Of a stretch of 64,000 bases of DNA, positions 3,724-52,926 are shown piece by piece (the first letter of the stretch is position 1; the number at the start of each line of letters is the position of its first letter). Under the pieces are notes generated by a model. That model searched no databases. It had not been told where the DNA came from and saw nothing but the letters and a program-made list of their open reading frames with translations. A program made the translations under genes and the position numbers. Origin of the DNA: Gammaproteobacteria bacterium (lineage in GTDB: Bacteria > Pseudomonadota > Gammaproteobacteria > Pseudomonadales > Pseudohongiellaceae); the NCBI GenBank assembly GCA_009692305.1, contig SHZK01000003.1:62001-126000 (forward strand). Reading direction: 5' to 3'.

Positions 3724-4785
3724 CTATTTTGCGCTGTTGCCCGCGTTGCGGATAAAATTGGTCCAGAAGGTCAGAAACAATGCAGCCAACAATGGTCCGA
3801 TAACAAAACCATTGATGCCCATCAGGGACAGACCGCCAAGGGTAGAGAACAGCACCATGTAGTCGGGCAGTTTGGTGTCGCGACCGACCAAGATCGGACG
3901 CAGGACATTGTCAGCGAGACCGATAATGATGACCCCGAAAGCAACCAGTACGGATGCTGCAACCCAGGCGCCGGTGGAATACAGGTATATAGCTACCGGC
4001 ACCCACACCAGAGAAGCTCCCACCGCTGGAATCAGCGACAGAAATCCCATTACCACAGCCCAGAGTATTGGGGCTGGGATACCCAGTATCCAGAATATAA
4101 AACCACCCAGACTCCCCTGCACGGCGGCTACCAACACGTTGCCCTTGATAGTAGCGCGTGTCACCTCGACGAATTTCCCGAGCAGCAACTGCTTACGCTC
4201 TGAGTCAAGTGGCAGGGCCTCACGGGTCCAGCCGATTATTTTCTCTCCATCGCGCAGCAGGAAGAAAGTCAGATACAGCATCAGGGTCAGGCTCAGGATG
4301 AAGCTCACGGTATTGCGGCCAAAGCTCAGCGCTTCCTCAGCCAGCCATTGACTCATGCTGATTGCAGCGCTGGACAGGAATTCACGTATATTGACCAAGT
4401 CGATTCCCAGACGTTGTAAAAACTCAGGTATCACAGGCACGGAGCTGCCAATGCCTTCGATGATCGCAGCCGGATCAATCTCCTTGCTTTGAATGCGCTC
4501 ATACAGCTGTATTCCTTCCTGCACAAACGCGAAGATCACGGCGACAACCGGGATGACCACGAGAACAATCCCGGCCAGTAACGATAGTAGCGCTGCAGTG
4601 TTGCGACGATCTCCAAGCGTTTTCAGTAAACGGCGATGCAGCGGGAAGAAAATAATGGTAATGGCCGCCGCCCAGAAAATTGCGCCCCAGAAGGGACGCA
4701 TCAACAGAGCAAACAGAATCGTAAAAATGACCAACAAGGTAAGAAATACCCTGGATTCCATTAACTGACGCCTGGCTGTATTCAT
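3724..4785 (-). CDS. AI-2E family transporter (PerM/YhhT-like permease)
   Basis: A 353-residue inner-membrane protein of the AI-2E transporter family (PF01594), matching the family's usual 340-370 residues. Members have been linked to export of autoinducer-2 or other small molecules and to Na+/H+ antiport, so the substrate cannot be named. Two N-terminal hydrophobic helices (about 13-50) are followed by a third near 62-85, a long amphipathic central region (about 85-150), and a block of C-terminal helices. These include LILSLTLMLYLTFFLLRDGEK and a conserved Gly-rich stretch with LWAVVMGFLSLIPAVGA, typical of the family. The gene is monocistronic with repeat elements on both sides. Confidence 0.9.
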   Translation of the reverse strand: MNTARRQLMESRVFLTLLVIFTILFALLMRPFWGAIFWAAAITIIFFPLHRRLLKTLGDRRNTAALLSLLAGIVLVVIPVVAVIFAFVQEGIQLYERIQSKEIDPAAIIEGIGSSVPVIPEFLQRLGIDLVNIREFLSSAAISMSQWLAEEALSFGRNTVSFILSLTLMLYLTFFLLRDGEKIIGWTREALPLDSERKQLLLGKFVEVTRATIKGNVLVAAVQGSLGGFIFWILGIPAPILWAVVMGFLSLIPAVGASLVWVPVAIYLYSTGAWVAASVLVAFGVIIIGLADNVLRPILVGRDTKLPDYMVLFSTLGGLSLMGINGFVIGPLLAALFLTFWTNFIRNAGNSAK

Positions 4786-5180: not shown

Positions 5181-7349
5181 ATGCATCCGTCTCTATCCCG
5201 CAAGCAATTCCCGTCCAGTGATCTCAATGCCGTCAATGCGAGGCAAACTCCGCGCACAATTAGCCTGAACGGATTCGATGTCGAAGCCAAGCGCCGCGAA
5301 TTGCAAGCCTATTTCACCAGCACATGGGAGCAATATGAATCCCTGTTTGCCCCACTCCTGCCCGAAGCTTTTTACACCAGGGCTGAGACGCTGCGACATC
5401 CGCTGATTTTCTACTTTGGGCACACCGCCACGTTTTATATCAACAAGATGGTGCTGGCGCAGTTCACCGATGCCCGGGTTAACCCGAAGCTGGAGGCGAT
5501 GTTCGCCATCGGCGTCGATGAGATGTCGTGGGATGATCTGGATGCATCCCACTATGACTGGCCGTCTGTTGCTGAGGTAATAAAATACCGGGACCAGGTG
5601 AAGGCACGCGTTCTCGCCTTGATTCGCTCGATGCCATTGTCCTTGCCGATCACTCCGAACTGTCCGGCATGGCTGGTGCTGATGGGTATTGAGCACGAGC
5701 GCATTCACCTCGAGACCTCGTCTGTCATCATGCGCATGCTGCCACTTCGCCTGATCGACAAAAAGCAGGCCGCGCAGTGGCCAGCCTGCCCGCATACGGG
5801 TACTGCCCCGGCATTGCACTGGCATCCATTCGCGGCAACCACAATTGAGCTGGGCAAATCCGCACACGATCTCACCTATGGCTGGGACAACGAATACGGA
5901 CGCGAAGTGCATCAGGTTGCCGACTTCAAGGCAGGCACGACTCTGGTGAGCAATCAGGATTTTCTGCAATTCGTCGCAGCGGGCGGTTACGAGCAGACGC
6001 AACACTGGACCGAAGAAGGCAAGCAATGGCTGGCTTACACCAGAGCGCGTCATCCCCGATTCTGGCGACCGGCACTGAATGGCACGTATGTGCAGCGCAA
6101 TCTGTTTACCGAGATGCCGCTGCCGCTGGACTGGCCGGTGGAAGTGAATTATCTGGAAGCGAAGGCCTATTGTAACTGGCTTGCCGGGCAAACTGGTGAG
6201 CCGGTACGATTGCCCACCGAGGCGGAGTGGTATGTGCTGCGTAAATCAGCGCTGGGGGAGTCGGAGGGCACTGACAATATCAATCTGGCACAGTACGCCT
6301 CTTCCTGTCCGGTGACGGCAAACCCTCAGGGGAAATTGTATGATGTGACTGGTAATGTCTGGCAGTGGACAGAAACAGCGATCGATGGATTTCCTGGTTT
6401 TGCAGTGCATCCCTGGTATGACGATTTCTCCACACCCACGTTCGATGGCAAGCACAACCTGATCAAGGGTGGCTCCTGGATCTCCACAGGTAACGAAACC
6501 ATTGCCGCGTCGCGGTACGCATTTCGACGACATTTCTTCCAACACGCAGGATTCAGAATGGTTATCTCCAACAGCAAACCGGAAGCACGCGAACAGGATA
6601 ACGTGTATGAAACCGATGCATCGATTGCCCAGTATTGCGAGTTCCACTACGGCAACGAGTACTTTTCCGTACCGAATTTTCCGGTGGCCTGTGTGCAAAA
6701 ACTGATGACTCATGTGCAGGGTCGCGGCGGCGCCACACAAAAAGCGCTGGATCTCGGTTGTGCGGTGGGCCGCTCCTCGTTCGAACTCGCCAAATACTTT
6801 CAGCAGGTCGATGCCGTCGATTTCTCGGCCCGCTTTATCCAGCAGGGTGTCAAGTTACAGGCGCACAATCGCCTGCGTTACACGCTGCCGGTCGAGGGCG
6901 ATATCGTGGAGTATCGCGAAGTGCTGCTCGATAATTTGGGGTATGCCGACGTCAAGGATCGCATCGCCTTCATGCAAGGGGACGCCTGCAATCTCAAGCC
7001 ACAAAGCACGGACTACAATCTGGTATTTGCCGGCAATCTGATTGATCGACTCTATGATCCGGCGCAGTTTCTCAGTGCCATACAAACTCGGCTGCTATCC
7101 TGTGGCCTGCTCGTGTTGACTTCACCCTACACGTGGCTGGAGCAATACACTGACAAGGGCAGTTGGCTTGGCGGCATCAAGGTCAACGGTGAAAATTTCA
7201 CGACCCTAGATGCACTGAAACAACATCTGGGCGCGACCTGCGATCTTGAAGAGACGCTTGATATTCCCTTTGTGATTCGCGAGACGGCGCGTAAATTCCA
7301 GCACACCGTTGCCCAGATGACGATCTGGCGTAAACGCGAGGTGAAGTGA
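5181..7349 (+). CDS. ovoA: 5-histidylcysteine sulfoxide synthase / mercaptohistidine N-methyltransferase
   Basis: OvoA is a non-heme iron enzyme that joins cysteine to the 5-position of histidine with O2, the first step of ovothiol A synthesis. In this family a C-terminal domain also N-methylates the later intermediate. The 722 residues show an N-terminal DinB-like domain with HPLIFYFGH (His81) and the iron motif H-x3-H-x-E (His172, His176, Glu178 in GIEHERIHLE). A formylglycine-generating-enzyme-like domain follows (about 220-465, with VRLPTEAEW, DVTGNVWQW and GGSW). Last is a SAM methyltransferase domain with LDLGCAVG at 523-530. EgtB, the nearest relative, lacks this methyltransferase. The stop codon is one base from the start of the next gene, so both are probably co-transcribed. 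Confidence 0.93.
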   Translation: MHPSLSRKQFPSSDLNAVNARQTPRTISLNGFDVEAKRRELQAYFTSTWEQYESLFAPLLPEAFYTRAETLRHPLIFYFGHTATFYINKMVLAQFTDARVNPKLEAMFAIGVDEMSWDDLDASHYDWPSVAEVIKYRDQVKARVLALIRSMPLSLPITPNCPAWLVLMGIEHERIHLETSSVIMRMLPLRLIDKKQAAQWPACPHTGTAPALHWHPFAATTIELGKSAHDLTYGWDNEYGREVHQVADFKAGTTLVSNQDFLQFVAAGGYEQTQHWTEEGKQWLAYTRARHPRFWRPALNGTYVQRNLFTEMPLPLDWPVEVNYLEAKAYCNWLAGQTGEPVRLPTEAEWYVLRKSALGESEGTDNINLAQYASSCPVTANPQGKLYDVTGNVWQWTETAIDGFPGFAVHPWYDDFSTPTFDGKHNLIKGGSWISTGNETIAASRYAFRRHFFQHAGFRMVISNSKPEAREQDNVYETDASIAQYCEFHYGNEYFSVPNFPVACVQKLMTHVQGRGGATQKALDLGCAVGRSSFELAKYFQQVDAVDFSARFIQQGVKLQAHNRLRYTLPVEGDIVEYREVLLDNLGYADVKDRIAFMQGDACNLKPQSTDYNLVFAGNLIDRLYDPAQFLSAIQTRLLSCGLLVLTSPYTWLEQYTDKGSWLGGIKVNGENFTTLDALKQHLGATCDLEETLDIPFVIRETARKFQHTVAQMTIWRKREVK

Positions 7350-42530: not shown

Positions 42531-44450
42531 ATGCTTATCCTTCCGCACTTTTCTGCAGCCGACCCGTCATCTTTCAAGCGTACCGTGATGCAGACTATTC
42601 CTGATGTGAATTTTGTAGGAGCTCGCAAGGGCGCCAGCGGGACTCTTGATGACCTGAAGAGTAGTCCCCCAATACCCAAGGCCTGGTTAAGTCCCGCACT
42701 CGTGAAGGTGGTAATGGAGCGCCTGCAAGCGAATCAAGCTGCGCATTCCCGACTGGATCTTCACTCTATCATCCACAGTCACTTCTTCGATTCAGCCAAT
42801 GACCGCTACCGGATGGTCTGGTCTAGGCAAATGATCACTGCTGCAGGCGTGTCCAGGATTCGAAGAAAGGGAGCTTTGCCAGAGCTGGTTCTGCCTCTTC
42901 GCGGTGGAGAGGAAGAGCGCAGCGGCGATCGCCGCTGGATGCGTCAGATCCTGGAGAATCTCTACGCAAAGGGTGGGCGCGGACAAGTCGGCGTTGAGGA
43001 TTTTATTTATCTCACTTTGGTACATGAGGCGAGTGGAATCCATCAACGCAAGCAAGCAGAGACGTTGATCCCCAATATAAAGGCAGAAATACGCGCTGAA
43101 ATAGAAGAGGCGAAGGCTTACTTTTCACTACCTGCGGAACGCAGAAAAGTATTGCGTCAGTTATATGTAATGCTGGATGAGACCTATGACCCGCGCAAAA
43201 AGATATTCAGTTGCGAGCTCGATCTGTTCGACAGCATAGGCGAAGAAAATTTGGGCACAATGGAAAGCCTGCTGGCTCTGATCAAATTTATTGCAGAAAT
43301 GCCAGACTATGTCAGGGAATCAAACCATTATCATGACGACAGAACTCGACTCCAGCTGGCGAAGAGTTTGTTTGTTGATACCCTGCACGATTTTGCAGGC
43401 TCAGGCAGGACTGGCAAATGGGTGAGGGATGTGGAAAATGCTGGCACGTTTGCGGGTCATCCAGCCGAGTATGTTTACACTGCAAACTCGAAGGCTCTGA
43501 GCGAACAAGCAGAAGAGATCTTTAGTACAGCTGCGAGAATAATCCAGACATTAAAGGGAGAAAACCCGGAATCGGGTTCATTGCCAAGCAAGAGTCAAAA
43601 AAAGCATGCAATCCAGGGTTTCAACAATCAAATCAAGAAACTGGACTCATTGAAAAGCCAGCTGTGTCTGAATGAAGTGTTCAGCATACCTGCTCAATTG
43701 AAGGATGCGCTCGCGGATAACAGCATCAATCGACATTTCTCATACATGGATGAGTTTGGAATTTATCATTCTCTCGATTTATCGCGCCTTGACCTGCGAG
43801 GATTGAATTTACACTCGGGCCAGGATGAGAGAACCGCAACTGACATGGCCCAGGAAATAAATCATTACAAAGAGGCGCGTAGCGATCTGAAGGGTCCTCA
43901 GATTACTGGTAGTGATATTTCTGGACGCGCTAATTTTAGCTCTGCACAAATGGATTTTGTGAATGCCGCATACTCCAACCTTAGTGAAGTCATTTTCGCG
44001 CGAACCCAGGCGCGGGGAATGATTTTTTATGGAGTGAACGCAAGCGAAGGACAATTTGAGCGGGCGAAAATGAACGCGGTAGATGCACGCGGCATGAGCG
44101 CGAACTTTGCGCGCATTCAGATGAAAGAAACCGACATTAACGGCATGAAGATCTGGCAATCCGATGTGCCTAGCTGGCAAAGAGCCTATGTTGATATCTC
44201 CCAAACCACTACAGCAAACAAAAGTGATGAATCTGAAAGCACTGATCGTAATTCCCTGAAAGCGGAGCTCGACTTTGTGGATGACTCATTTCTGGATGAA
44301 CTGGTAGCGATAGACGAGACCGATACCATTCAACGAGAGGAAAGCTGGATTGAGTTAAGGGAAGTAGACGGGCAGCTTGAGTTCTTGAAGGGTCGGGGCA
44401 TTGTGTTTTATTCCAGGGAAGAGATTCTGGAATACAGTGTTAGTGATTAG
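42531..44450 (+). CDS. orphan 639-residue protein with a pentapeptide-like C-terminal region
   Basis: I do not recognise this protein. There is no signal peptide or membrane segment. Residues about 45-410 are mostly alpha-helical and charged, including a WMRQILENLYAKGGRGQVGVEDFIYLTLVHEASG block and an IKAEIRAEIEEAKAYF coiled coil. Residues 416-545 are built of short repeats such as LDLSRLDLRGLNL, ITGSDISGRANFSSAQMDF and ANFARIQMKETDINGMKIW, which resemble pentapeptide repeats and may form a right-handed beta-helix. A tail rich in Asp and Glu ends the protein. ATGs at 42531 and 42588 are both possible starts. Neighbours give no clue to function. Confidence 0.65.
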   Translation: MLILPHFSAADPSSFKRTVMQTIPDVNFVGARKGASGTLDDLKSSPPIPKAWLSPALVKVVMERLQANQAAHSRLDLHSIIHSHFFDSANDRYRMVWSRQMITAAGVSRIRRKGALPELVLPLRGGEEERSGDRRWMRQILENLYAKGGRGQVGVEDFIYLTLVHEASGIHQRKQAETLIPNIKAEIRAEIEEAKAYFSLPAERRKVLRQLYVMLDETYDPRKKIFSCELDLFDSIGEENLGTMESLLALIKFIAEMPDYVRESNHYHDDRTRLQLAKSLFVDTLHDFAGSGRTGKWVRDVENAGTFAGHPAEYVYTANSKALSEQAEEIFSTAARIIQTLKGENPESGSLPSKSQKKHAIQGFNNQIKKLDSLKSQLCLNEVFSIPAQLKDALADNSINRHFSYMDEFGIYHSLDLSRLDLRGLNLHSGQDERTATDMAQEINHYKEARSDLKGPQITGSDISGRANFSSAQMDFVNAAYSNLSEVIFARTQARGMIFYGVNASEGQFERAKMNAVDARGMSANFARIQMKETDINGMKIWQSDVPSWQRAYVDISQTTTANKSDESESTDRNSLKAELDFVDDSFLDELVAIDETDTIQREESWIELREVDGQLEFLKGRGIVFYSREEILEYSVSD

Positions 44451-44452
44451 AT

Positions 44453-44501
44453 TCTGGATAGAGTTTCAGCTTCAACGAATCAAAGGTGAGTTCTATCCAG
44501 A
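44453..44501. repeat. 10-bp inverted repeat after the orphan gene
   Basis: TCTGGATAGA and TCTATCCAGA separated by 29 bases, beginning three bases after the stop codon. No T run follows, so its role as a terminator is doubtful. Confidence 0.4.
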
Positions 44502-44600
44502 TTGCACAGACGGCTCCAATAAGATTGAAACCTTCAGACCGCTCTCTTTGTGATGGTCGGCAGGGCGGCAAACGGATGCTTATCCGCTATTTTTCTTACA

Positions 44601-46055
44601 TTAATTCGTTAACTTTTCATTACCGGCAGCAGGCAGTCCCACGCGTACCCATTTCTGCCACTTGAGTTCCCTGCGCAGGATTAACCGCTTGAGGCTTCTG
44701 AAAAGCGCCTGCAGTTCGATCATGTCCATAATGTAGAACACCAGCCAGGCCACCGGAGCGAGCAGAATCAGGTTGACGTGGAAGCGCCGTTTGGAATCGA
44801 CCAGTATCTGCACCAGGCCAACGGTGGCGAGAATTGCGATAACGGAAGCGAGCGGCATATAGTCATGGGTCAATATAGTGTAAATGAGGAAGGCCGCCAG
44901 CATGAATCCTTCGAGCAGCAACAGGAATTCGGCATATACCGCCATTGGCAGCAGCATGAGCGTCAGATACGAATTATGTTTGCGGTCCAGGCTGAAGAAG
45001 AGGTTCCGGTGTTTGATAAATGTCAGGATCCGTCCATATTTCCAGCGCAGGCGTTGATTGCAGAGGCTCTTGAAATCAGATGGTCCTTCGGTATAGATCA
45101 CCGCATCAGCAGCATAGCGCGTGTTATAGCCATGGCTCAGAATTCGCGTCGACATCTCGATGTCTTCGGTGATGATGCCATGGTCGAAGCCGCCCATCTC
45201 CTGTAGCACTTCCCGACGATACGCTGCCGCCGCCCCACCAATGATGTAAACGGAGTTGAACACGGAGTCGGCGCGCTTGAAGAAAAAGCCATAGACATAT
45301 TCCAGTTGCTGCATCCACTCGATCGGTTTCCGCCGGTTTCCGACAATCACATTGCCGGCAACCGCCCCAACGTCAGGACTGCTGAAGCATCTGACAAGGT
45401 TGGTGATCGCATCGGGATCCATGACGCTATCGGCATCGATCGTAATAACGATTTCGCCGGTGGCTTCGAGCAGTGCCCGGTTCAAGGCGCGCGCTTTGCC
45501 TCCGTTTGCCACGTTAAGGTATTCAAGCGTTGCCCCTTGGGGCTCTAGCTGCTTGTGACTGGCTATAAAATTGGTTACTTGCTCGTGCGTGCCATCTGAA
45601 GAGCCATCGTTAATGATTACGATTTGGAGCTGGGGATAGTGTGTATAAAGGACCGACTTGATTGTTTTCACAATCCCGACTTCCTCGTTCCAGGCAGGAA
45701 TCAGCACCGAAACCGACAACATCCTCTCATCTTTGCCACGTTTTTTCCGGAAATTCTCAACGATTGGGTTTAACAGGGCGGAAGTCAGCTGGAAAACGTA
45801 CTTGACCAGCAATGGCATCAACAATACCAGCATATACACCCGGATCGAGTCGAGTCCGGCAACGGGTTTGAACGTTAAGTTTGCAGCCAAATAGAACACC
45901 GTTGCTGTCACGGAATACAACGCGACAATCATAAGTACTAAGGCTGGTTTTTCCTGCGGGGAAGTTGTTAAGCAGTGAACGAAAGAGCCGTAAATCCTAC
46001 TGCAGACCAAAGATGTGCTTTTCTGCAATCTCAGGAAACTATCAAGAATGTTCAA
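44601..46055 (-). CDS. family 2 glycosyltransferase, PgaC/chitin-synthase-like
   Basis: A 484-residue inner-membrane processive glycosyltransferase. Two N-terminal helices (about 38-60 and 73-95) precede the catalytic domain: SVLIPAWNEEVGIVKTI, NDGSSDGT, TIDADSVMDPDAI (the Asp pair), EDIEMSTRIL (the TED base) and the product-channel motif QRLRWKYGRI. Several C-terminal helices (about 360-450) follow. These features match polysaccharide synthases for beta-1,4- or beta-1,6-linked amino sugars or glucose. No pgaA/B/D or export partners are adjacent, so the polymer is unknown. Last gene before the AT-rich insert. Confidence 0.9.
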   Translation of the reverse strand: MNILDSFLRLQKSTSLVCSRIYGSFVHCLTTSPQEKPALVLMIVALYSVTATVFYLAANLTFKPVAGLDSIRVYMLVLLMPLLVKYVFQLTSALLNPIVENFRKKRGKDERMLSVSVLIPAWNEEVGIVKTIKSVLYTHYPQLQIVIINDGSSDGTHEQVTNFIASHKQLEPQGATLEYLNVANGGKARALNRALLEATGEIVITIDADSVMDPDAITNLVRCFSSPDVGAVAGNVIVGNRRKPIEWMQQLEYVYGFFFKRADSVFNSVYIIGGAAAAYRREVLQEMGGFDHGIITEDIEMSTRILSHGYNTRYAADAVIYTEGPSDFKSLCNQRLRWKYGRILTFIKHRNLFFSLDRKHNSYLTLMLLPMAVYAEFLLLLEGFMLAAFLIYTILTHDYMPLASVIAILATVGLVQILVDSKRRFHVNLILLAPVAWLVFYIMDMIELQALFRSLKRLILRRELKWQKWVRVGLPAAGNEKLTN

Positions 46056-46414
46056 AGTCTTTTTACGAACCTCATAAGCAGGTGAAAATTAGCGCGCACT
46101 ATATATGAAAATTGGATAAAAGCTATGTGATTTTGGGTCAAAATCGACGTTTTTTTGAACTTGCGCAGCAGCCGGCTTTAACGTCCGGATTTTATTGCGT
46201 TCCAGGTCATTTCCAGATGCCTGGCCTATGACTCGAAAGACTATTACCGGCGATAGCGGACTCCAAAAACCCATTGCCCGTTAGGCGAATTGGTAGCTCA
46301 AAGCAATTTGACGGGAATCGGTGGGCCCACTCATCATGTGCTATTCAGCTGCTGGGGTTGTTTTAATGTGACATCAGGCCAGTGCTGTAATCCACTGATT
46401 CGCCCTTGGTGGAT
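46056..46414. other. 359-base intergenic region at the border of the AT-rich insert
   Basis: Lies between the glycosyltransferase gene and the first insert gene. It carries the 75-bp repeat at 46258-46332 that resembles the 3' tRNA flank. The rest, including an open frame at 46089-46274, shows nothing I can support. Confidence 0.5.
46258..46332. repeat. tRNA-flank-like 75-bp repeat, distal copy
   Basis: Ungapped alignment with 50249-50323 gives 52 identities in 75 positions. Shared blocks are GGACTC, AACCCAT, CCGTTA and GGTGGGCCCAC, the last being the reverse complement of the tRNA-Ile 3' acceptor. Same orientation as the tRNA-proximal copy, so the pair could be degenerate attachment sites or relics of a duplicated tRNA. 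Confidence 0.6.
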
Positions 46415-46942
46415 TCAATAGGTCAGAGCAACACCAGATGTTTTAAGTTTCCACATCTGCTTCATTTCTTTTTTAAATCTGAAGTCAATACCCCAAATAA
46501 TTACACGAATTGAAGATTTCAATTTTTCATCGAGTAAAACATCTAAAATTGACTGAATCTCAGTATTCGGTAGTCTGTTTTGGATGAATCCAAAATGGGT
46601 AAAGTTCAAGACATCGGCTGTAACAGCATTTGCAGCTTTTATAAGATCTTTGATGAGAAAATCTGTGTTGCCTCTACCTTTAGTAGAGGGCACAAGGAGA
46701 AGTGTAGGACTGAGCTCTTTGATAGCAGCAATTTCATTGCGACTGTTGCACTGAGCTGATGCTGCAGCTAGCAGGTCGTTACTCCACCCATATCTTCTTG
46801 AAATTGCAGTCAGTGGTGTAAACCCATCAATATTTGCGGTTGCTGAGATCACATCAGATTCAATTGACTCAGGAAACCATAGCTTATGCCCCATTACAAC
46901 TTCGTCGTATGTATGCGGCATTTCTCGAAAAATGATCTCCAT
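46415..46942 (-). CDS. hypothetical protein
   Basis: A 175-residue cytosolic protein without a family I recognise. It is acidic and mixed alpha/beta, with segments MEIIFREMPHTYDEVVMGHKLWF, ELSPTLLLVPSTKGRGNTDFLIKDLIKAANAVTADVLNFTHFGF and SSIRVIIWGIDFRFKKEM. Its codon use is more AT-rich than in surrounding chromosomal genes. It is the first gene of the insert next to the repeat at 46.3 kb. Confidence 0.5.
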   Translation of the reverse strand: MEIIFREMPHTYDEVVMGHKLWFPESIESDVISATANIDGFTPLTAISRRYGWSNDLLAAASAQCNSRNEIAAIKELSPTLLLVPSTKGRGNTDFLIKDLIKAANAVTADVLNFTHFGFIQNRLPNTEIQSILDVLLDEKLKSSIRVIIWGIDFRFKKEMKQMWKLKTSGVALTY

Positions 46943-47127
46943 CAGAGTTCCTTAAATATTCTGACGTGGTGTTGAAAAATGCCTAACAAACGGTACTAAT
47001 GTAATGAACCATCCCCACCCCTGCTTGGCAGTTGCATTTTTGCTGCCAGCGTTAGAAGTATTATTGTTTCTCATAGAATAGAACCAGAAGAATTTTATTT
47101 TTATACACCGCCGTCATATCTGAGGAC

Positions 47128-47559
47128 TCAAGATATCCAGAATCCTGCAAGAAGGATAACACTAATAGGCGATTGCAATGTAAAAACTGCTCTGCCTCCA
47201 GTCGCATTTAAAAGTCCGCCATAGAACACCCAATCTATTTTGATCTCACCACCATCTATTTCAATGCGCTCTATGAACAGTTCCTTAGAGGCAGTCTTTT
47301 GAATATCGTCTATAGTTTCAATGATCTCTATTTCAAACTCTTTCCAAACAATGTTAGTCTCTTCTACGCCGTAAATAGTTGCTATTATGCACGCCGCTAT
47401 TTCCTGAGGCAGCCCTGGCTTGGCGTTACATATAGACTCGGCTTCTGTGTTCGTAGGTTCCTTTAGGAAGAGTAAAGGATCTTTATTCCGCTGCGTGTAA
47501 AAAATCGAAAGTACCGATAATACAGCAAGTAGTGGAATGGCTGTTTTATAAATCTGCAT
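47128..47559 (-). CDS. hypothetical exported or membrane-anchored protein
   Basis: A 143-residue protein with an N-terminal hydrophobic segment (IYKTAIPLLAVLSVLSIFY), then an acidic domain with two cysteines (SICNAKPGLPQEIAACIIATIYG) and a second hydrophobic stretch near the C-terminus (SPISVILLAGFWIS). AT-rich. No family recognised. A smaller open frame upstream (47632-47841, minus) is not supported. Confidence 0.45.
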   Translation of the reverse strand: MQIYKTAIPLLAVLSVLSIFYTQRNKDPLLFLKEPTNTEAESICNAKPGLPQEIAACIIATIYGVEETNIVWKEFEIEIIETIDDIQKTASKELFIERIEIDGGEIKIDWVFYGGLLNATGGRAVFTLQSPISVILLAGFWIS

Positions 47560-47879
47560 ATATTCACCCCCGGTCGACTGAGGCCCAAATGAAAGGGGGG
47601 TAAAGTAGGTATTGAAAATATCTTCACCATCTTAAGTGCAGTAGTAATCGCGGTCATCTGTGTTCACCAATGAATCATCAGTAAAGTTATTACTTATTTG
47701 GTAATTTAACGCTAATTCCTTCGATTCTGACACTTTTAGTCGATTCTGAGTGACAGTAATCATCTTTTCCCTGTGAAACTCTCCTCCGTACGCTGCGCCG
47801 AATTGAGTGAAGGCGCAAAAGGCACAAAATGAGTGAGCCATTCAAGGAAACAGCAACCGCCTAATTAGTCGGTCTGGAA

Positions 47880-48010
47880 GTGAACATGCAACGAGCCGAA
47901 CCAGAACTACAGCACTACGATGTCATCGTCGTCGGCGCGGGCATGGCTGGCTTGTATCTGCTATACAAATTGCGCGCAGCGGGATTCTCTGTCATCGCTC
48001 TCGAAACAGC
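47880..48010 (+). pseudogene. N-terminal fragment of an FAD-dependent monooxygenase
   Basis: The frame from the ATG at 47880 reads HYDVIVVGAGMAGLYLLYKLRAAGFSVIALETAD, a complete FAD-binding beta-alpha-beta with the GxGxxG motif and the start of flavin-containing (Baeyer-Villiger type) monooxygenases. After about 44 residues homology stops, and the following sequence leads straight into the rsuA start. The rest of the ~500-residue enzyme is missing. This marks a deletion or insertion junction inside the AT-rich segment. Confidence 0.65.
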
Positions 48011-48120
48011 TGACCCCTTATTCAGCTGCGCTCATCACATACAGTTTGTCAGCAGTTGCGGTTCTGTCGCAGCTTACCGGCAGATTGTTCTTCCGTCATG
48101 CCATGCCTATAATGCCACGC

Positions 48121-48819
48121 ATGAGACTTGATAAAAGAATCGGCCACAGCACCGGATTATCACGACAGGAATCGCAACGAGCCATTCGTTCTGGGCGTGT
48201 TGCTATTAATCAGATCATCAGCAAAAAGGCAGACCAGCAAACAACAGAAGAGGATGAAATAACGCTGGATGCCAAATCCGTTCAGCTACCTAAGCCTCGT
48301 TATTACATGTTACACAAACCGGCAGGCTATGTTTCCGCATCGACTGATAGCGATCACCCCACCGTTCTGGATTTGCTAGATGAACCCGAACGTCATCACT
48401 TGCAGATTGTGGGTCGTTTAGATATTGATACAACGGGACTATTACTAATCACCGATGATGGACAATGGAACCATCGCATCACATCACCCTCACGGCAATG
48501 CATTAAAACCTACCGCGTAACACTCCATGATGCACTCACGGAAGACGCTGCCAAGCAGCTTCAAAATGGCGTTATGCTGCACGGAGAAAAAAAGCCCACA
48601 AAACCTGCAGAGCTTAAATTCACTGACTCACAAAATACTCAAATCTTGCTAACCATCAGTGAAGGAAGATATCACCAAGTAAAACGGATGATCGCCGCCA
48701 TTGGCAGTCATGTAATCAGTTTGCATCGAGAAAAAATAGACGCTATTACATTGGATGCATCTTTACTGCCAGGACAATATCGTGAATTAACAGAAACAGA
48801 AGTTTCGAGCATTAGATGA
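48121..48819 (+). CDS. rsuA: 16S rRNA pseudouridine synthase RsuA
   Basis: A 232-residue pseudouridine synthase of the RsuA family, which modifies U516 of 16S rRNA in E. coli. MRLDKRIGHSTGLSRQESQRAIRSGRVAIN is an S4-like RNA-binding domain. The catalytic motif is GRLDIDTTGLLLITDDG with its nucleophilic Asp, followed by KTYRVTL and SEGRYHQVKRMIAAIGSHV. It tracks E. coli RsuA closely across its length. The start at 48121 fits the family N-terminus, although the open frame extends back to 47920. The TGA overlaps the next ATG by four bases. AT-rich compared with the chromosome around it. Confidence 0.92.
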   Translation: MRLDKRIGHSTGLSRQESQRAIRSGRVAINQIISKKADQQTTEEDEITLDAKSVQLPKPRYYMLHKPAGYVSASTDSDHPTVLDLLDEPERHHLQIVGRLDIDTTGLLLITDDGQWNHRITSPSRQCIKTYRVTLHDALTEDAAKQLQNGVMLHGEKKPTKPAELKFTDSQNTQILLTISEGRYHQVKRMIAAIGSHVISLHREKIDAITLDASLLPGQYRELTETEVSSIR

Positions 48820-49916
48820 TTTTCGATGAAGCTTTTAATATACTGATCGAGCAGCTGAAACACTCGTTTTCAGAAACACGAGCGCCAGGTTTAGAAACGC
48901 CAAGATACACCCCAGAGATAGCACAAATACTTTGGTTGGCAGACGAGAGCGCATGTCCATCTGTTCAGAGTATCCCTCCTCACTCCAGTATCCGCATCAT
49001 CAGCAATCGTTTTGATGTAACGCAAGCCGCTCAATCCACTGAACTATCTGCGACCTTTTCTGATTTTGATTTTTCTGAGATTCCAAGCAATTCGATACAC
49101 AAAATTCTTTATCGCTTATCAAAAGAAAAGTCTGTTATTCATCACATCATCAATGAGGCTTTCCGCCTGCTTTCGCCAAGGGGTGAATTATGGGTTTCAG
49201 GATTAAAAAATGAGGGAGCCAAAACCATTATTGCAAAAACAGCGAACCTGTTTGGTAATGGCCATGCCGAAAAATATCGTTCTGCCTACCTGGGCCAATT
49301 TAGAAAAGACACTCCATTGCCATTAGGAGAATTTCTAGACACGCAAAACTATTTATCACTACGGCTAGAGAAATCGTCTGGAATGAGTTTTTATAGCAAG
49401 CCCGGTTTATTTGGCTGGAACAAAATTGACAAAGGCAGCAATTATCTTTTAGAGAACATACCACTTTTTTTAAGCCATTTTAAAACACCACCCAACTCCC
49501 TTCTGGATTTGGGTTGCGGCTACGGTTATCTCACTATAGGCACACGAGATATTCCACTCGGCAAACGTGCTGCGACAGATAACAATGCCGCCGCAATTCT
49601 TGCCATGAAAAAAAATGCTGAATTTTACGGTATAAATGTCTGTGTAATAGCCGATGACTGTGCCGCATCACTTAGCAACACTTTTGATATGATCTTGTGC
49701 AACCCTCCCTTCCACCAAGGCTTTGATATTAATTCGATGCTAACGGAAAGATTTTTATACACAACGAAAAGGTTGTTATCGCCACAAGGCGGCGCGCTAT
49801 TCGTGGTAAATAGCTTTATTGGTATTGAGGCCGTCGCAACAAGCCACTTCTTACACATTGCCACCCTGGCCAATAATGGTTCATTTAAACTGATAATGCT
49901 GTCTAACAGAAAATAA
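48816..49916 (+). CDS. RsmC/RlmG-like rRNA guanine-N2 methyltransferase
   Basis: A 366-residue protein with the duplicated-domain plan of RsmC: a degenerate N-terminal domain, then FYSKPGLFGWNKIDKGSNYLLENIP, the SAM motif LLDLGCGYGYL (Gly233, Gly235, Gly237) and the catalytic NPPFHQG at 296-302. RsmC makes m2G1207 in 16S rRNA and RlmG m2G1835 in 23S rRNA. The SKPGLFGWNKID signature favours RsmC. Starts within the rsuA stop (ATGA overlap), forming a two-gene rRNA-modification operon. AT-rich composition suggests acquisition. Confidence 0.82.
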   Translation: MIFDEAFNILIEQLKHSFSETRAPGLETPRYTPEIAQILWLADESACPSVQSIPPHSSIRIISNRFDVTQAAQSTELSATFSDFDFSEIPSNSIHKILYRLSKEKSVIHHIINEAFRLLSPRGELWVSGLKNEGAKTIIAKTANLFGNGHAEKYRSAYLGQFRKDTPLPLGEFLDTQNYLSLRLEKSSGMSFYSKPGLFGWNKIDKGSNYLLENIPLFLSHFKTPPNSLLDLGCGYGYLTIGTRDIPLGKRAATDNNAAAILAMKKNAEFYGINVCVIADDCAASLSNTFDMILCNPPFHQGFDINSMLTERFLYTTKRLLSPQGGALFVVNSFIGIEAVATSHFLHIATLANNGSFKLIMLSNRK

Positions 49917-50248
49917 AGTATTGATGCGCCACGCAAATTAACTCTATAAATAAAATAGTCTGATTGAGAAAGCGAGCAAGCTCATCGTGTTGATTCGAGT
50001 ATAGTTATATTGCATACATAACTTTGTGCCCGCTCGACCAATAAACCTTCGACGTTCCGCCGTGATCGAGACTCCTAAACTCAGTTCGACACGAGTGGAA
50101 TCGGCGATTAGGAAGGCCTCATGTCTTGAAATAGGAGTCATGCGAGCATAATAACATGCGCATAGGCAGTTCGGAGTTCTGTGGCTTCCTTAAGACAAGA
50201 TGACAGTTTTTGGATTGTGTTTGTTTTGAGCGAAGGGTTTGGGCCAAC
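49917..50248. other. 332-base intergenic region next to the tRNA, no gene seen
   Basis: Follows the rsmC-like gene. Contains only short frames on both strands and no clear terminator. The 75-bp tRNA-flank repeat begins immediately after it. Confidence 0.45.
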
Positions 50249-50323
50249 GGACTCTCAAAACCCATAGTCCGTTATGCCAGATAGTAAGTGTGAGAATTTT
50301 AAAGGAAAATGGTGGGCCCACCA
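50249..50323. repeat. tRNA-flank 75-bp repeat, proximal copy
   Basis: Overlaps the last 14 bases of the tRNA-Ile gene and extends into its 3' flank. It matches 46258-46332 at 52 of 75 positions without gaps. It also contains AACGGACT / AGTCCGTT, a short stem that could terminate the tRNA transcript. Confidence 0.6.
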
Positions 50324-50592
50324 GGACTCGAACCTGGGACCAAGGGATTCGGGTTTGTGTAACTTTCGCTACTCCCTGGACTTTGCCTTCGCCATAGCCG
50401 GAGCCGTAGGCGGGTGCCGTCAAGTCTCTACACCTTCACAGCACTTGCGCACTGAGCTTGGCTCGGCATTGCCATATGCATCGCTGCACGCAGGTTTCAC
50501 CGACTTTGACACCATTCACACGCAGGGTTTCCCGCCACGGTGCACAAATTGCTTTATGAGTCCCCTGCTCTAACCAACTGAGCTATAGGCCC
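50310..50592 (-). tRNA. tRNA-Ile(CAU) split by a group I intron
   Basis: The exons assemble into a full tRNA. The 5' exon (50592-50556) reads GGGCCTA TA GCTC AGTTGGTTA GAGC A GGGGA CTCAT. The 3' exon (50349-50310) reads AA TCCCT TGGTC CCAGG TTCGAGT CCTGG TGGGCCC ACCA. The acceptor (7 bp with G-U), D, anticodon and T stems all pair, the anticodon is CAU and CCA is encoded. The D-arm, the CTCATAA loop and the location after rpoD match tRNA-Ile2 (lysidine-modified at C34) rather than initiator or elongator Met. A 206-nt intron lies between bases 36 and 37. Confidence 0.93.
50350..50555 (-). ncRNA. self-splicing group I intron (IC3-like) in tRNA-Ile(CAU)
   Basis: A 206-nt insert after U36 of the anticodon, ending in the required terminal G at 50350. 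It strongly resembles, from memory, the 205-nt Azoarcus tRNA-Ile(CAU) ribozyme. Shared blocks are GGTGTCAAA and GTGAAACCT (50493-50513), GCCGAGCCAAGCT, AAGGTGTAGAGACT and GACGGCACCC (50409-50436), and GTCCAGGGAGT plus GCGAAAGT (50362-50381). An internal guide GTG near the 5' end can pair with the exon CAU, giving the U-G splice-site wobble. No homing endonuclease is encoded. The insertion position equals the Azoarcus site as I recall it. Confidence 0.93.
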
Positions 50593-50740
50593 TGCAAACT
50601 TTCGGAGGCATTTTACCCCGAAGGGTACCGGCTATGGGCTTTTTACTGCGCCCAATTTCCCCAGATTCCGGTTTCTCTGTAGTCCGTTGCTCGAAATTTA
50701 TAACTCCTGATTTCTCAAGGGGTTTTTCGAAAGCGTGCTA

Positions 50741-50800
50741 TGAGGGCCTAGGACAAACGGATTATGAGTCCGCTACTCTAACCAACTGAGTTATAGGCCC
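50741..50800 (-). pseudogene. T-arm-less tRNA-Ile(CAU) copy
   Basis: Reads GGGCCTA TA ACTC AGTTGGTTA GAGT A GCGGA CTCATAA TCCGT TTGTCC TAGGCCC TCA. The acceptor (7 bp), D stem (ACTC/GAGT) and anticodon stem all pair, but the whole T arm is missing and the 3' end is TCA instead of CCA. It has no intron. It is 148 bases upstream of the intron-bearing copy, in the same orientation. Loss between CCTAGG-like repeats of the T stem would explain the deletion. Confidence 0.7.
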
Positions 50801-50993
50801 GCTTTGTCTTCACCTGATGTCCGTACTCTTCGTTGCTCGACTTTTTTCACTCGGTCACATACTAACGTATGCTCCCTCCCTCAAAAAGATCGTGCGCCTC
50901 GATTACGAACTTCAGGTTTCGCCAAAGCCCTTCGATAGGCATCGTCAGGCTTTGTTCTAACACTTCAGAATTAATTGAAAACCCTGAAACAAA

Positions 50994-51042: not shown

Positions 51043-52926
51043 TTAATCGTCGAGGAAGCTGCGCAGGTGATCGGATCGAGTTGGATGGCGCAGTTTCCGC
51101 AGAGCCTTTGCTTCGATCTGACGAATACGCTCGCGGGTCACGTCGAACTGCTTACCCACTTCTTCCAGCGTGTGGTCAGTATTCATGTCGATGCCAAACC
51201 GCATACGCAGCACTTTCGCTTCTCTTGCAGTCAGGCTGCTGAGGACTTCCTTGGTGGCTTCGCGCAGACCTTCATCGATAGAGGAATCTACCGGTGAATC
51301 TACAGTTGAGTCTTCGATAAAGTCGCCCAAATGGGAGTCTTCATCATCACCTATTGGTGTTTCCATGGAGATTGGTTCTTTCGCGATCTTCAGTACGCGG
51401 CGGACCTTGTCTTCTGACATGTCCATGCGTTCTCCCAATTCCTCGGGAGTTGGCTCGCGACCTTTCTCGTGTACCATTTGACGGCTGATACGGTTCAGCT
51501 TGTTGATGGTTTCGATCATGTGCACAGGTATACGGATCGTTCGCGCCTGGTCGGCGATAGAGCGGGTAATCGCCTGACGAATCCACCAGGTGGCATAGGT
51601 GGAGAATTTGTAGCCGCGACGGTATTCGAACTTGTCCACAGCTTTCATCAAGCCGATGTTGCCTTCCTGGATCAGGTCGAGGAATTGCAGGCCGCGATTC
51701 GTGTATTTCTTGGCGATGGAGATAACCAGACGCAGATTCGCTTCGACCATTTCTTTCTTGGCGCGGCGTGATTTGGCTTCGCCGATAGACATCTGGCGAT
51801 TGATATCCTTAATTTCGGTAATGGTCAGGCCGTATTCCTCTTCCAGCATCTTCATCTTGCGCTGGGCGCGGACTACTTCGACCTTTACCTTGACGAGCAA
51901 CTCGGAATAGGCGGCCTTTTCCTTGATGTGCTTATCGATCCACTTCTCATTGATCTCGTTACCAGGGAAGCTATCTACGAATATCTTGCGTGGCATCTTG
52001 GCGCTGCGCACGGCGAGGCTCATCACATTTCTTTCTTGGCGACGCAGGCGGATCAGCACGGCGCGGATATGGCTTAACAGCGGATCGAACTGGCGCGGGG
52101 TCAGCTTGAAGCACTTGAATATCTCACCGAGTTTTTCCAATTCTTTGATCGCACGCTTGTCGCCGCGGCCATGCTTGGTTACAACGGAGCTGGTTTTTAC
52201 GTATTGATCACGCAGTTGAGCGAAGCGGATACGGGCTTCTTCCGGATCGGGACCGACGGCAGTTTCGTCATCATCACCACCAGCCACACCGTCCTCGTCG
52301 TCATCGCTGTCACTATCATCGTCGCCGCTGACTTTACTGGTCGACTTCTTGTCATCGTCGTCCATGCCCATAATTACTGGCGGTGGAATATCAGCATCGT
52401 CAGTGGTGTCGAGGTAGCCGGTTATCAGTTCATTCAGGCGGCGTTCTTCGGTGTTGGTGAGAGCGTACTCGCTCAATACGTGCTCTACCGTGCCGGGGAA
52501 ATAGGCCATCGCCTGCATCAGTTCTCGCAGACCCTCTTCGATACGCTTGGCGATTACAATCTCGCCTTCGCGAGTCAGCAACTCTACAGTGCCCATTTCG
52601 CGCATGTACATGCGCACTGGGTCAGTGGTACGACCGGCTTCGTTTTCAACTGCAGCGAGAGCGGCAGCGGCTTCGGCGGCAGCGACTTCGTCGGCACCGG
52701 AGTCGCTGTCTTCTTCACCAAGTAGCAGGGAATCTCGATCGGGTGCGGTTTCATACACCTTGATGCCCATGTCGTTAATCATCTGGATGATGTCTTCGAC
52801 CTGGTCAGGATCCGAGATATTTTGTGGAAGGTGGTCATTCACTTCCGCATAAGTCAGGTAATTCTGTTCCTTGCCCTTGGCAATGAGTGCCTTGAGACTG
52901 AATTGGGGTGCTATTAGTTTGGCCAT
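51043..52926 (-). CDS. rpoD: RNA polymerase primary sigma factor
   Basis: Sigma-70 (627 residues, usual size for gammaproteobacteria). Region 1.1 is at the N-terminus ([27 protein letters not shown]), followed by [22 protein letters not shown] (region 1.2). A long acidic non-conserved segment (DDDDKK to DDEDG) comes next. Regions 2.1-2.4 read [56 protein letters not shown]. Region 3 and the region 4 helix-turn-helix follow ([29 protein letters not shown]). It follows dnaG in the classical rpsU-dnaG-rpoD order. Confidence 0.98.

Follow-up and report, generated by a model that had tools for sequence, protein, structure and literature searches.

A putatively self-splicing group I intron in a gammaproteobacterial tRNA-Ile(CAU) gene that was probably brought by an integrative element and lies beside a broken native copy

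Introns of tRNA genes that encode no homing endonuclease raise two questions: by what route they pass from one bacterium to another, and what accounts for their place in the anticodon loop. The tRNA-Ile intron of Azoarcus BH72 (subgroup IC3) shares with the intron described here its host tRNA, its site in the anticodon loop, a near-equal size and the same core blocks. Unlike it, the present intron is 206 nt long, has a bulged base in P2 and lies beside a broken native copy of the gene. A cyanobacterial tRNA-Leu(UAA) intron was reportedly subject to recombination of the entire tRNA locus, going by the title of a 2002 paper by Rudi et al.; our case is similar in that an intron appears to move together with its tRNA gene, although that title mentions neither a recombinase nor a native gene that is broken.

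Crystal structures of the Azoarcus intron are mentioned in a review (PMC3984707). The Islander genomic islands, as described in PMC4383910, resemble the elements considered below in having a tyrosine recombinase, an anticodon-centred crossover and tRNA pieces at both ends. They rebuild their target from a tRNA fragment in attP, the usual form of target repair, whereas in the present elements the target is left unrepaired and its place is taken by a second, complete tRNA gene that often bears an intron. The Tycheposons of Methylophilaceae (PMC10872708) are alike in that an island in Methylopumilus starts from a gene annotated as tRNA-met(cat) and has a tyrosine recombinase; the word intron does not occur in the main text of that paper. 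One of our loci from Methylopumilus (L101) has both a truncated tRNA half, or stub, and an intron-bearing gene, and this arrangement is possibly the same island. Seen against these systems, the intron itself is a new member of a known family, and the broken native gene together with the element family is a new variant of tRNA-targeting integration.

The window, a 64-kb stretch of a gammaproteobacterial genome assembly, had been said in a preliminary description to contain a tRNA gene downstream of rpoD that is split after U36 by a 206-nt insert ending in G. These coordinates proved exact (Table 1), and ARAGORN agreed with them when introns were allowed, reporting a tRNA(cat) with a 206-nt intron after CTCAT. 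In its default mode the program found no tRNA gene in the whole window, as had been anticipated for a standard tRNA scan. Rfam at its gathering cut-offs gave no match to Intron_gpI in the window and reported just the truncated upstream copy, at 50800–50743, as a tRNA. When a 601-bp stretch was searched with Intron_gpI (RF00028), the intron matched over model positions 1–253 of 253 with an E-value of 6.7e-4; this full-length match had a score of 23.8 bits, below the gathering cut-off of 50 bits. At E ≤ 0.001 the window intron was the sole match to the model in the 3.08-Mb host assembly. No homing endonuclease is encoded in the intron: the only ORF of at least 80 aa over the 206 nt (50274–50573, plus strand) is antisense and crosses the exons. 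Since a default tRNA scan misses such genes, an AUA-decoding tRNA can be reported as absent and its broken predecessor as a tRNA.

Table 1. Features of the intron-bearing tRNA-Ile(CAU) locus, in window coordinates.
Feature	Position	Strand	Basis
rpoD, upstream neighbour of tRNA-Ile(CAU)	51043..52926	-	
Native intronless tRNA-Ile(CAU) stub; first 50 bases as in the intact gene of G010, then apparent T-arm break	50747..50800	-	
Spacer of 154 bp, from stub to intron-bearing gene	50593..50746	-	
5' exon of tRNA-Ile(CAU), positions 1–36, ending CTCAT	50556..50592	-	sequence, ARAGORN intron mode
206-nt group I intron of the Azoarcus type, ending in G	50350..50555	-	Rfam, ARAGORN, alignment, covariation
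P1: exon CAU with guide GUG (50545–50543), extended by AAA/UUU around a GCAA loop	50543..50558	-	100% of cells paired, 27 sequences
P3 5' strand, pairs with 50418–50413; invariant in alignment	50508..50513	-	
P7 5' strand GACUU, pairs with 50383–50379 AAGUC	50422..50426	-	alignment helix
P9 hairpin	50359..50372	-	covariation; P9.0 (50376–50375 with 50353–50352) covaries too
3' exon of tRNA-Ile(CAU), A37 to CCA	50310..50349	-	sequence, ARAGORN intron mode
Hairpin 3' of the intron-bearing tRNA; like the sequence after the intact native tRNA in G011 and G006	50241..50280	-	

A pattern of the intron core was scanned over public genome contigs and found in at least 118 stretches, which are the source of most of the intron loci used here. 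The claim that the insert carries the core blocks of the Azoarcus-type ribozyme rests on these homologues. Among the matches listed, at least 119, 96 lay inside a tRNA that ARAGORN read with an intron, 74 of them cat, and 23 had no tRNA call, 12 of these being at the edge of the stretch. The introns of the 74 cat relatives listed have a length of 198–218 nt, with one exception of 249 nt, a conserved core and the Azoarcus-type site between U36 and A37. Among the matches listed, the Azoarcus-type intron was common in betaproteobacteria, and the highest identities of the window intron to the 74 homologues were to two of these, Brachymonas (86%) and Sterolibacterium (85%). Its identity of 74% to three rows, two of them titled gammaproteobacterial, is an underestimate caused by a boundary taken 21 nt too long. 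In a tree, the window intron groups with Brachymonas (92/94) on a long branch, a placement without full support whose bootstrap is not settled.

The intron type had been called uncommon in gammaproteobacteria, which agrees with its distribution in the genus and order of the host. In the same genus, it was found in one of 84 genomes, that of the host itself. In an order-wide sample, 35 of 390 genomes matched the intron model R1, and the next best score was 110.9 bits against 223.2 for the window, the latter being raised because the model was built with the window included. ARAGORN gave an intron in 26 of the 29 order loci that were read, 17 of these in Leu(UAA) or Arg(CCU) genes; two others (L234 and L236) have distant introns at the identical U36/A37 site. 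A BLAST search of 369 genomes of the class matched the host genome only, which says little, as the first pass took at most two candidates per genome. G008 was considered as a second carrier of the window intron and rejected, because its 43.8-bit match is a piece of another group I intron; this piece (L212, about 1500–1590) lies in a stretch that by eye resembles an HNH-endonuclease gene. A second intron type, of about 245 nt, was observed at U33/C34 of the same loop in L231, L233, L256 and probably L324, also in replacement tRNA-Ile genes; the gene in L324 would be a tRNA-Ile(CAU) split at U33/C34, by its likeness to L231. Two loci come from bins titled Klebsiella pneumoniae (L085) and Bordetella parapertussis (L072), and their introns cluster with a Nevskiaceae bin and unnamed Burkholderiales bins, so these bins are possibly mislabelled.

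For a structural alignment, the window intron was combined with 26 of the 74 cat introns among the matches listed, namely the 25 that were left after dropping rows at least 90% identical to another and the row of 249 nt, and L051, added by hand. A group I model of 62 pairs (P1–P9, with P7 as a pseudoknot) had 95.7% of its cells paired across the 27 sequences, a figure favoured by the structure having been written from the window row; the double-sided changes are not affected by this. Such changes occurred at 29 pairs and in 152 cells, against a shuffle mean of 38.6 and no equally high value in 500 shuffles, and when partners were slid as a control, pairing fell to 27–40%. Changes on both sides were seen in P2, P5a, P6, P6a, P9.0, P9 and the last pair of P7, which is U–A in the window and six other sequences and A–U in 20 of the 27. 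P3 and P7, two pairings on which the preliminary description had made the identification depend, are formed in all 27 sequences; as P3 never varies, covariation neither supports nor opposes it. The exon–guide pairing CAU/GTG described earlier likewise stood up, P1 being paired in 27 of 27, each with a U·G at the 5' splice site, and G is the last base of the intron. All 62 pairs are able to form in the window sequence. Minimum-energy folding of this single sequence by a program that does not model pseudoknots was not unusual (z = −0.05).

Together with the full-length Intron_gpI match, the 62-pair model identifies the insert, by its sequence, as a group I intron of the Azoarcus tRNA-Ile type that is predicted to splice itself. 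In the group I mechanism, an external guanosine attacks the 5' splice site, after which the exons are joined. Here, the attack would fall directly after U36, with the exon CAU kept in place by the guide GUG; ligation of the exons would follow, and TilS would then make the spliced tRNA a reader of AUA.

TilS, which converts a CAU tRNA into an AUA reader, is present in the host genome (174.6 bits). The two other CAU tRNAs of the assembly are by their sequence the initiator and elongator tRNA-Met, and a search with the spliced tRNA found no other complete copy in the assembly, which is 94% complete. Apart from the two exons, that search found the stub, other tRNAs with weaker scores and, on another contig, C15, two pieces of a 3' half. 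Other expected tRNAs, tRNA-Ile(GAU) and Trp, were likewise not among the tRNA places of the assembly, and with an assembly of this completeness the absence of a second tRNA-Ile(CAU) is not proof. The codon ATA accounts for 99 of 14,729 codons across the 32 long ORFs of the window and is present in 29 of them. The split gene thus appears to be the only working tRNA-Ile(CAU) gene of the cell, in line with the earlier suggestion that it might be the only intact decoder of AUA codons. We consider it very improbable that the intron is instead a decayed relic that no longer splices, with AUA being read by the stub or by a tRNA missing from the assembly. Although the absent tRNA genes and the Rfam score under the cut-off could be taken that way, every pair of the model can form, the last pair of P7 has been kept in a compensated form, the stub is without a T arm and CCA, and nearly all of the window's long ORFs use ATA.

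The broken native copy 154 bp upstream, and the link to integrative elements that follows from loci elsewhere, are additional to what the preliminary description had claimed. The RpoD of the host scored highest in the PDB against a 617-aa RpoD chain from Pseudomonas (903 bits) and next against E. coli chains (about 840 bits), and it is 50–63% identical, over at least 390 aligned aa, to the RpoD of named loci that are mostly betaproteobacterial, which suits a gammaproteobacterial host without proving it. An RpoD search matched 24 of 29 genomes including the host, and 13 of 18 relatives of the same genus. In 12 of these 13 relatives the tRNA-Ile(CAU) gene after rpoD is intact and intronless, and in the 13th the sequence runs into Ns; the order rpoD–tRNA-Ile(CAU) is common to relatives and to many betaproteobacterial intron loci. 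The stub keeps the anticodon loop, and the flank after the window intron gene resembles that after the intact gene in G011 and G006. The first 39 nt of stub and intron-bearing gene are 92% identical. The spliced tRNA matches a common betaproteobacterial type at 74 of 77 positions, and the native genes of G010 and G008 at 72 and 71 of 77, respectively. The intact gene of the relatives, the identity of the stub to that of G010 over 50 bases and the single occurrence of the intron in the genus suggest that the intron-bearing gene is not native, and that the native gene by rpoD was broken and a tRNA-Ile(CAU) of another make took over downstream.

The stub may have arisen by a plain break in the T arm. 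It may also be the product of a 16-nt T-arm deletion with a repaired acceptor, as the tRNA-model match pairs TAGGCCC with the 5' acceptor strand of the stub, but a plain break needs fewer steps. The spacer has no second full copy in the host genome and no match among phage records. Six ORFs of 143–639 aa at window positions 42531–49916, among them those for a glycosyltransferase, a pseudouridine synthase and a methyltransferase of the small-domain type, gave no match to a recombinase family, and no matching right end of an element was identified on the contig of the window. Contig C15 (L168, in G000) contains two native-type tRNA-Ile 3' halves on the minus strand, at 5958–5996 and 4385–4422, 1.5 kb apart. 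They flank two small ORFs, and an IS3-type orfA-like ORF lies beside the second half, which starts with CTCATAT, one base off the core CTCATAA of the attachment sites described below. An intergenic repeat (GAGGGAGCRTAC...GTACGTGACCGAGTGA...GCAACGAAGAGTACG, by eye) occurs in one copy at window positions 50820–50880, and the same repeat lies 5' of tRNA-Ile in several species of the genus (L170, L191, L178 and L174).

In three genomes of the order (L231, L233 and L234), too, an intron-bearing tRNA-Ile(CAU) lies behind an intronless one that is truncated. Across the tRNA genes listed, a truncated 5' half within 400 nt upstream on the same strand was present for 37 of 135 intron-bearing genes and for none of 121 intronless ones (Fisher p = 5.2e-12, on rows that are related and hence lack independence). 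Counted among the 37 are the window and the three loci just named, from which the idea of the test came, and some of the ARAGORN intron calls outside Ile and Leu that entered the count may be wrong. Duplicates had been removed by the gene and 60 upstream bases, and genes with less than 300 nt upstream had been dropped (14 of 149 with an intron and 7 of 128 without). For the anticodon cat, none of the 21 intronless genes had an upstream truncated half, and for intron genes reading ACTCAT the fraction was 28 of 79. No stub accompanied 98 of the 135 intron-bearing genes. In 30 of the 37 stub loci the upstream stretch contains CTCATAA, always at the end of the tRNA half, and the match to the tRNA ends at position 36–48 in 28 of these 30, the exceptions being the window (54) and L233 (58).

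In six loci (L034, L147, L059, L064, L231 and L233) the stub is visibly of another tRNA-Ile type than the intron gene, so that tandem duplication does not explain them. This bears on the possibility that no mobile element was involved in the window either: the native gene might have been duplicated in tandem, after which reverse splicing or exon co-conversion gave one copy its intron, while the copy without an intron decayed. The 92% identity over 39 nt, the difference of just 5 of 77 positions between the spliced tRNA and that of G010, and the lack of an element body beside the window gene would all fit such a plain acquisition. We nevertheless hold it to be unlikely, in view of the six mismatched loci, the slightly greater closeness of the spliced tRNA to the betaproteobacterial type than to the natives of G010 and G008, and the recurrence of the stub and intron-gene order with attachment sites.

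The 3' half of the tRNA was searched in 12 genomes behind named loci, and 20 places were read. Eight places, in seven genomes, are displaced native 3' halves that start with CTCATAA and have an acceptor strand that base-pairs with that of the stub at 7 of 7 positions. Six genomes have one such half on the contig of the stub, at a distance from the intron gene of 9.7 kb (G831), 23.6 kb (G841), 59.6 kb (G834), 20.5 kb (G835), 13.9 kb (G837) and 8.2 kb (G836); in G833 there are two, on other contigs. Nine further places are intron-bearing genes, which suggests that the elements stack, and three are decayed or altered halves (L263, L266 and L268). Two Polynucleobacter genomes (G834 and G835, behind L071 and L096) have several intron-bearing tRNA-Ile genes and displaced halves over tens of kb, as though several elements had accumulated at a single site.

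The target site reads GGA-CTCATAA-TCC, in which CTCATAA is the anticodon loop and is common to both halves. Left sites of the form GGA-CTCATAA-GAAAGA (L058 and L096), right sites of the form TCTGCT-CTCATAA-TCC (L259 and L260) and element-only sites of the form TCTGCT-CTCATAA-GAAAGA (L081 and L087) were all present; as attL, attR and attP-like sites, they fit a single exchange at CTCATAA. The left sites L135, L054 and L036 have partners (L085, L049 and L037, respectively) that agree with them on the right and have non-tRNA sequence on the left; these partners could be attP or junctions of stacked elements. In L134, L045, L135, L034, L051 and L132, a recombinase gene follows the intron gene at a distance of 41–1,048 bp. 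Pfam assigns the genes of L134 and L132, and that of L249 in G326, to PF00589, and detects a recombinase N-terminal domain in the one of L034; the products of L135, L045 and L051 had no Pfam match and are 48, 82 and 60% identical to that of L134 over most of their length. The other stub loci examined had no recombinase gene within the available stretch. In G831, attL and attR with a common core, matching halves and a recombinase are all present; G841 has the matching halves, the core and a recombinase, and G834–G837 have the halves and the core on one contig. G326 holds a compact element of about 8.8 kb in which the break and the displaced end meet in the T loop and not in the anticodon loop, and its recombinase had no homologue among the other loci compared with it.

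The shared CTCATAA of the halves and the recombinases beside several of them indicate that there are elements whose insertion site is this loop and which bring along a replacement tRNA that is often split in the loop by an intron. On these data, a good part of the tRNA introns is linked to elements that have a recombinase, disrupt a tRNA gene and deliver a whole gene in its stead. A literature search, which covered few subscription journals, found no paper that links tRNA group I introns with integrases. For the window, we consider it likely that the intron splices itself out of what is apparently the only working tRNA-Ile(CAU), a replacement most likely brought by an integrative element whose body has since been lost. 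The vehicle would have been an element that targets tRNA-Ile(CAU) and has a complete replacement tRNA at its left end. Loss of the body after arrival, by an exchange between the 3' end of the new gene and the displaced native 3' half, would leave the present order of stub, spacer, intron gene and native flank. The window stub is broken in the T arm, so the window does not show the core in the anticodon loop, nor is a T-arm site interrupted by its intron. This speaks against such an origin, as do the six ORFs without a recombinase match and the native-like flank after the intron gene.

The Azoarcus-type intron splits the core CTCATAA as CTCAT^AA, and it may thereby keep the integrase off the replacement gene. 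To draw a sample independently of introns, GTTAGAGCRNNGGACTCATAA was looked for in 250 genomes from the order that includes G831; at least 195 had a match. From the places listed, 70 were read, made up of the first 30 loci and 40 others, in whose selection genomes that matched twice (G883 among them) were somewhat favoured. They held 71 matches, namely 64 intact intronless genes, one intron-bearing gene without a stub and six truncated halves at five loci. All five truncated loci have a replacement within about 400 bp, with an intron in L280, L298 and L324 and without one in L281 and L285. L298 belongs to G831, the centre genome, so that two of the four new loci have an intron. The intronless replacements in L281 and L285 have an intact loop and the stem CGA/TCG in place of GGA/TCC. 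Each of the five replacements next to a stub thus departs from the target site, either through an intron or through its stem; this small number of cases fits a shielding role.

A sample of 399 genomes based on the recombinase had a match in 14 genomes, at 20 places, and led to the same five genomes and to L346. In L346, a recombinase of the same family lies 122 bp after a whole intronless tRNA-Ile(CAU), with no stub within the stretch, an arrangement that resembles classical restoration of the target by a fragment. At 14 of the 20 integrase places there was no tRNA-Ile nearby.

There is, in our estimate, somewhat under an even chance that the intron does nothing for the element, and that intron-bearing genes are simply common betaproteobacterial donors that are often picked up as replacements. 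The abundance of the intron type in betaproteobacteria among the matches listed speaks for such a neutral role, as do the intronless replacements in two of five loci, or two of four without the centre genome, and breaks outside the anticodon loop in G326 and the window. A neutral role leaves unexplained why both intronless replacements are altered in anticodon-stem pairs by the core, so that all five of this very small sample differ at the target, and why two intron types, at U36/A37 and at U33/C34, split the same loop. We put forward a functional alternative, tentatively and with some doubt: the persistence and spread of group I introns in bacterial tRNA genes may be due to integrative elements, which would employ them to obtain replacement tRNAs that the integrase cannot attack. 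The element would cut the anticodon loop CTCATAA of the host and supply its own tRNA copy, the intron would split the loop in the DNA and restore it in the RNA, and phages with the same genes would act as long-range carriers. If shielding is true, the job of the intron is to make the gene invisible to the recombinase in DNA while leaving the RNA unchanged. The idea does not cover G326 or the window, which are broken in the T loop and T arm.

The same core pattern was found in 17 viral contigs, always inside a tRNA gene according to ARAGORN: eight were called cat, four more read CTCAT before the intron, three were Leu(UAA) and two were called ctt. A tRNA-Ile(CAU)-like gene with an Azoarcus-type intron is thus present in the phage-like contigs L195, L196, L198–L205, L208 and L209, and tRNA-Leu(UAA) introns are in L197, L206 and L210. 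A 2014 review states that all phage introns then known sat in protein genes (PMC3984707). Our literature search, with its coverage of few subscription journals, turned up no description of group I introns in tRNA genes of phages. Among phage records, 89 matched the query, none over 80% of its length, and the best 20 of the 89 cover tRNA exons only; nine plasmids matched, two of them over part of the intron core. Ten ORFs near the viral intron genes were searched as well; five had no match, and the others included a terminase in L195 and a UvsX-like recombinase in L201.
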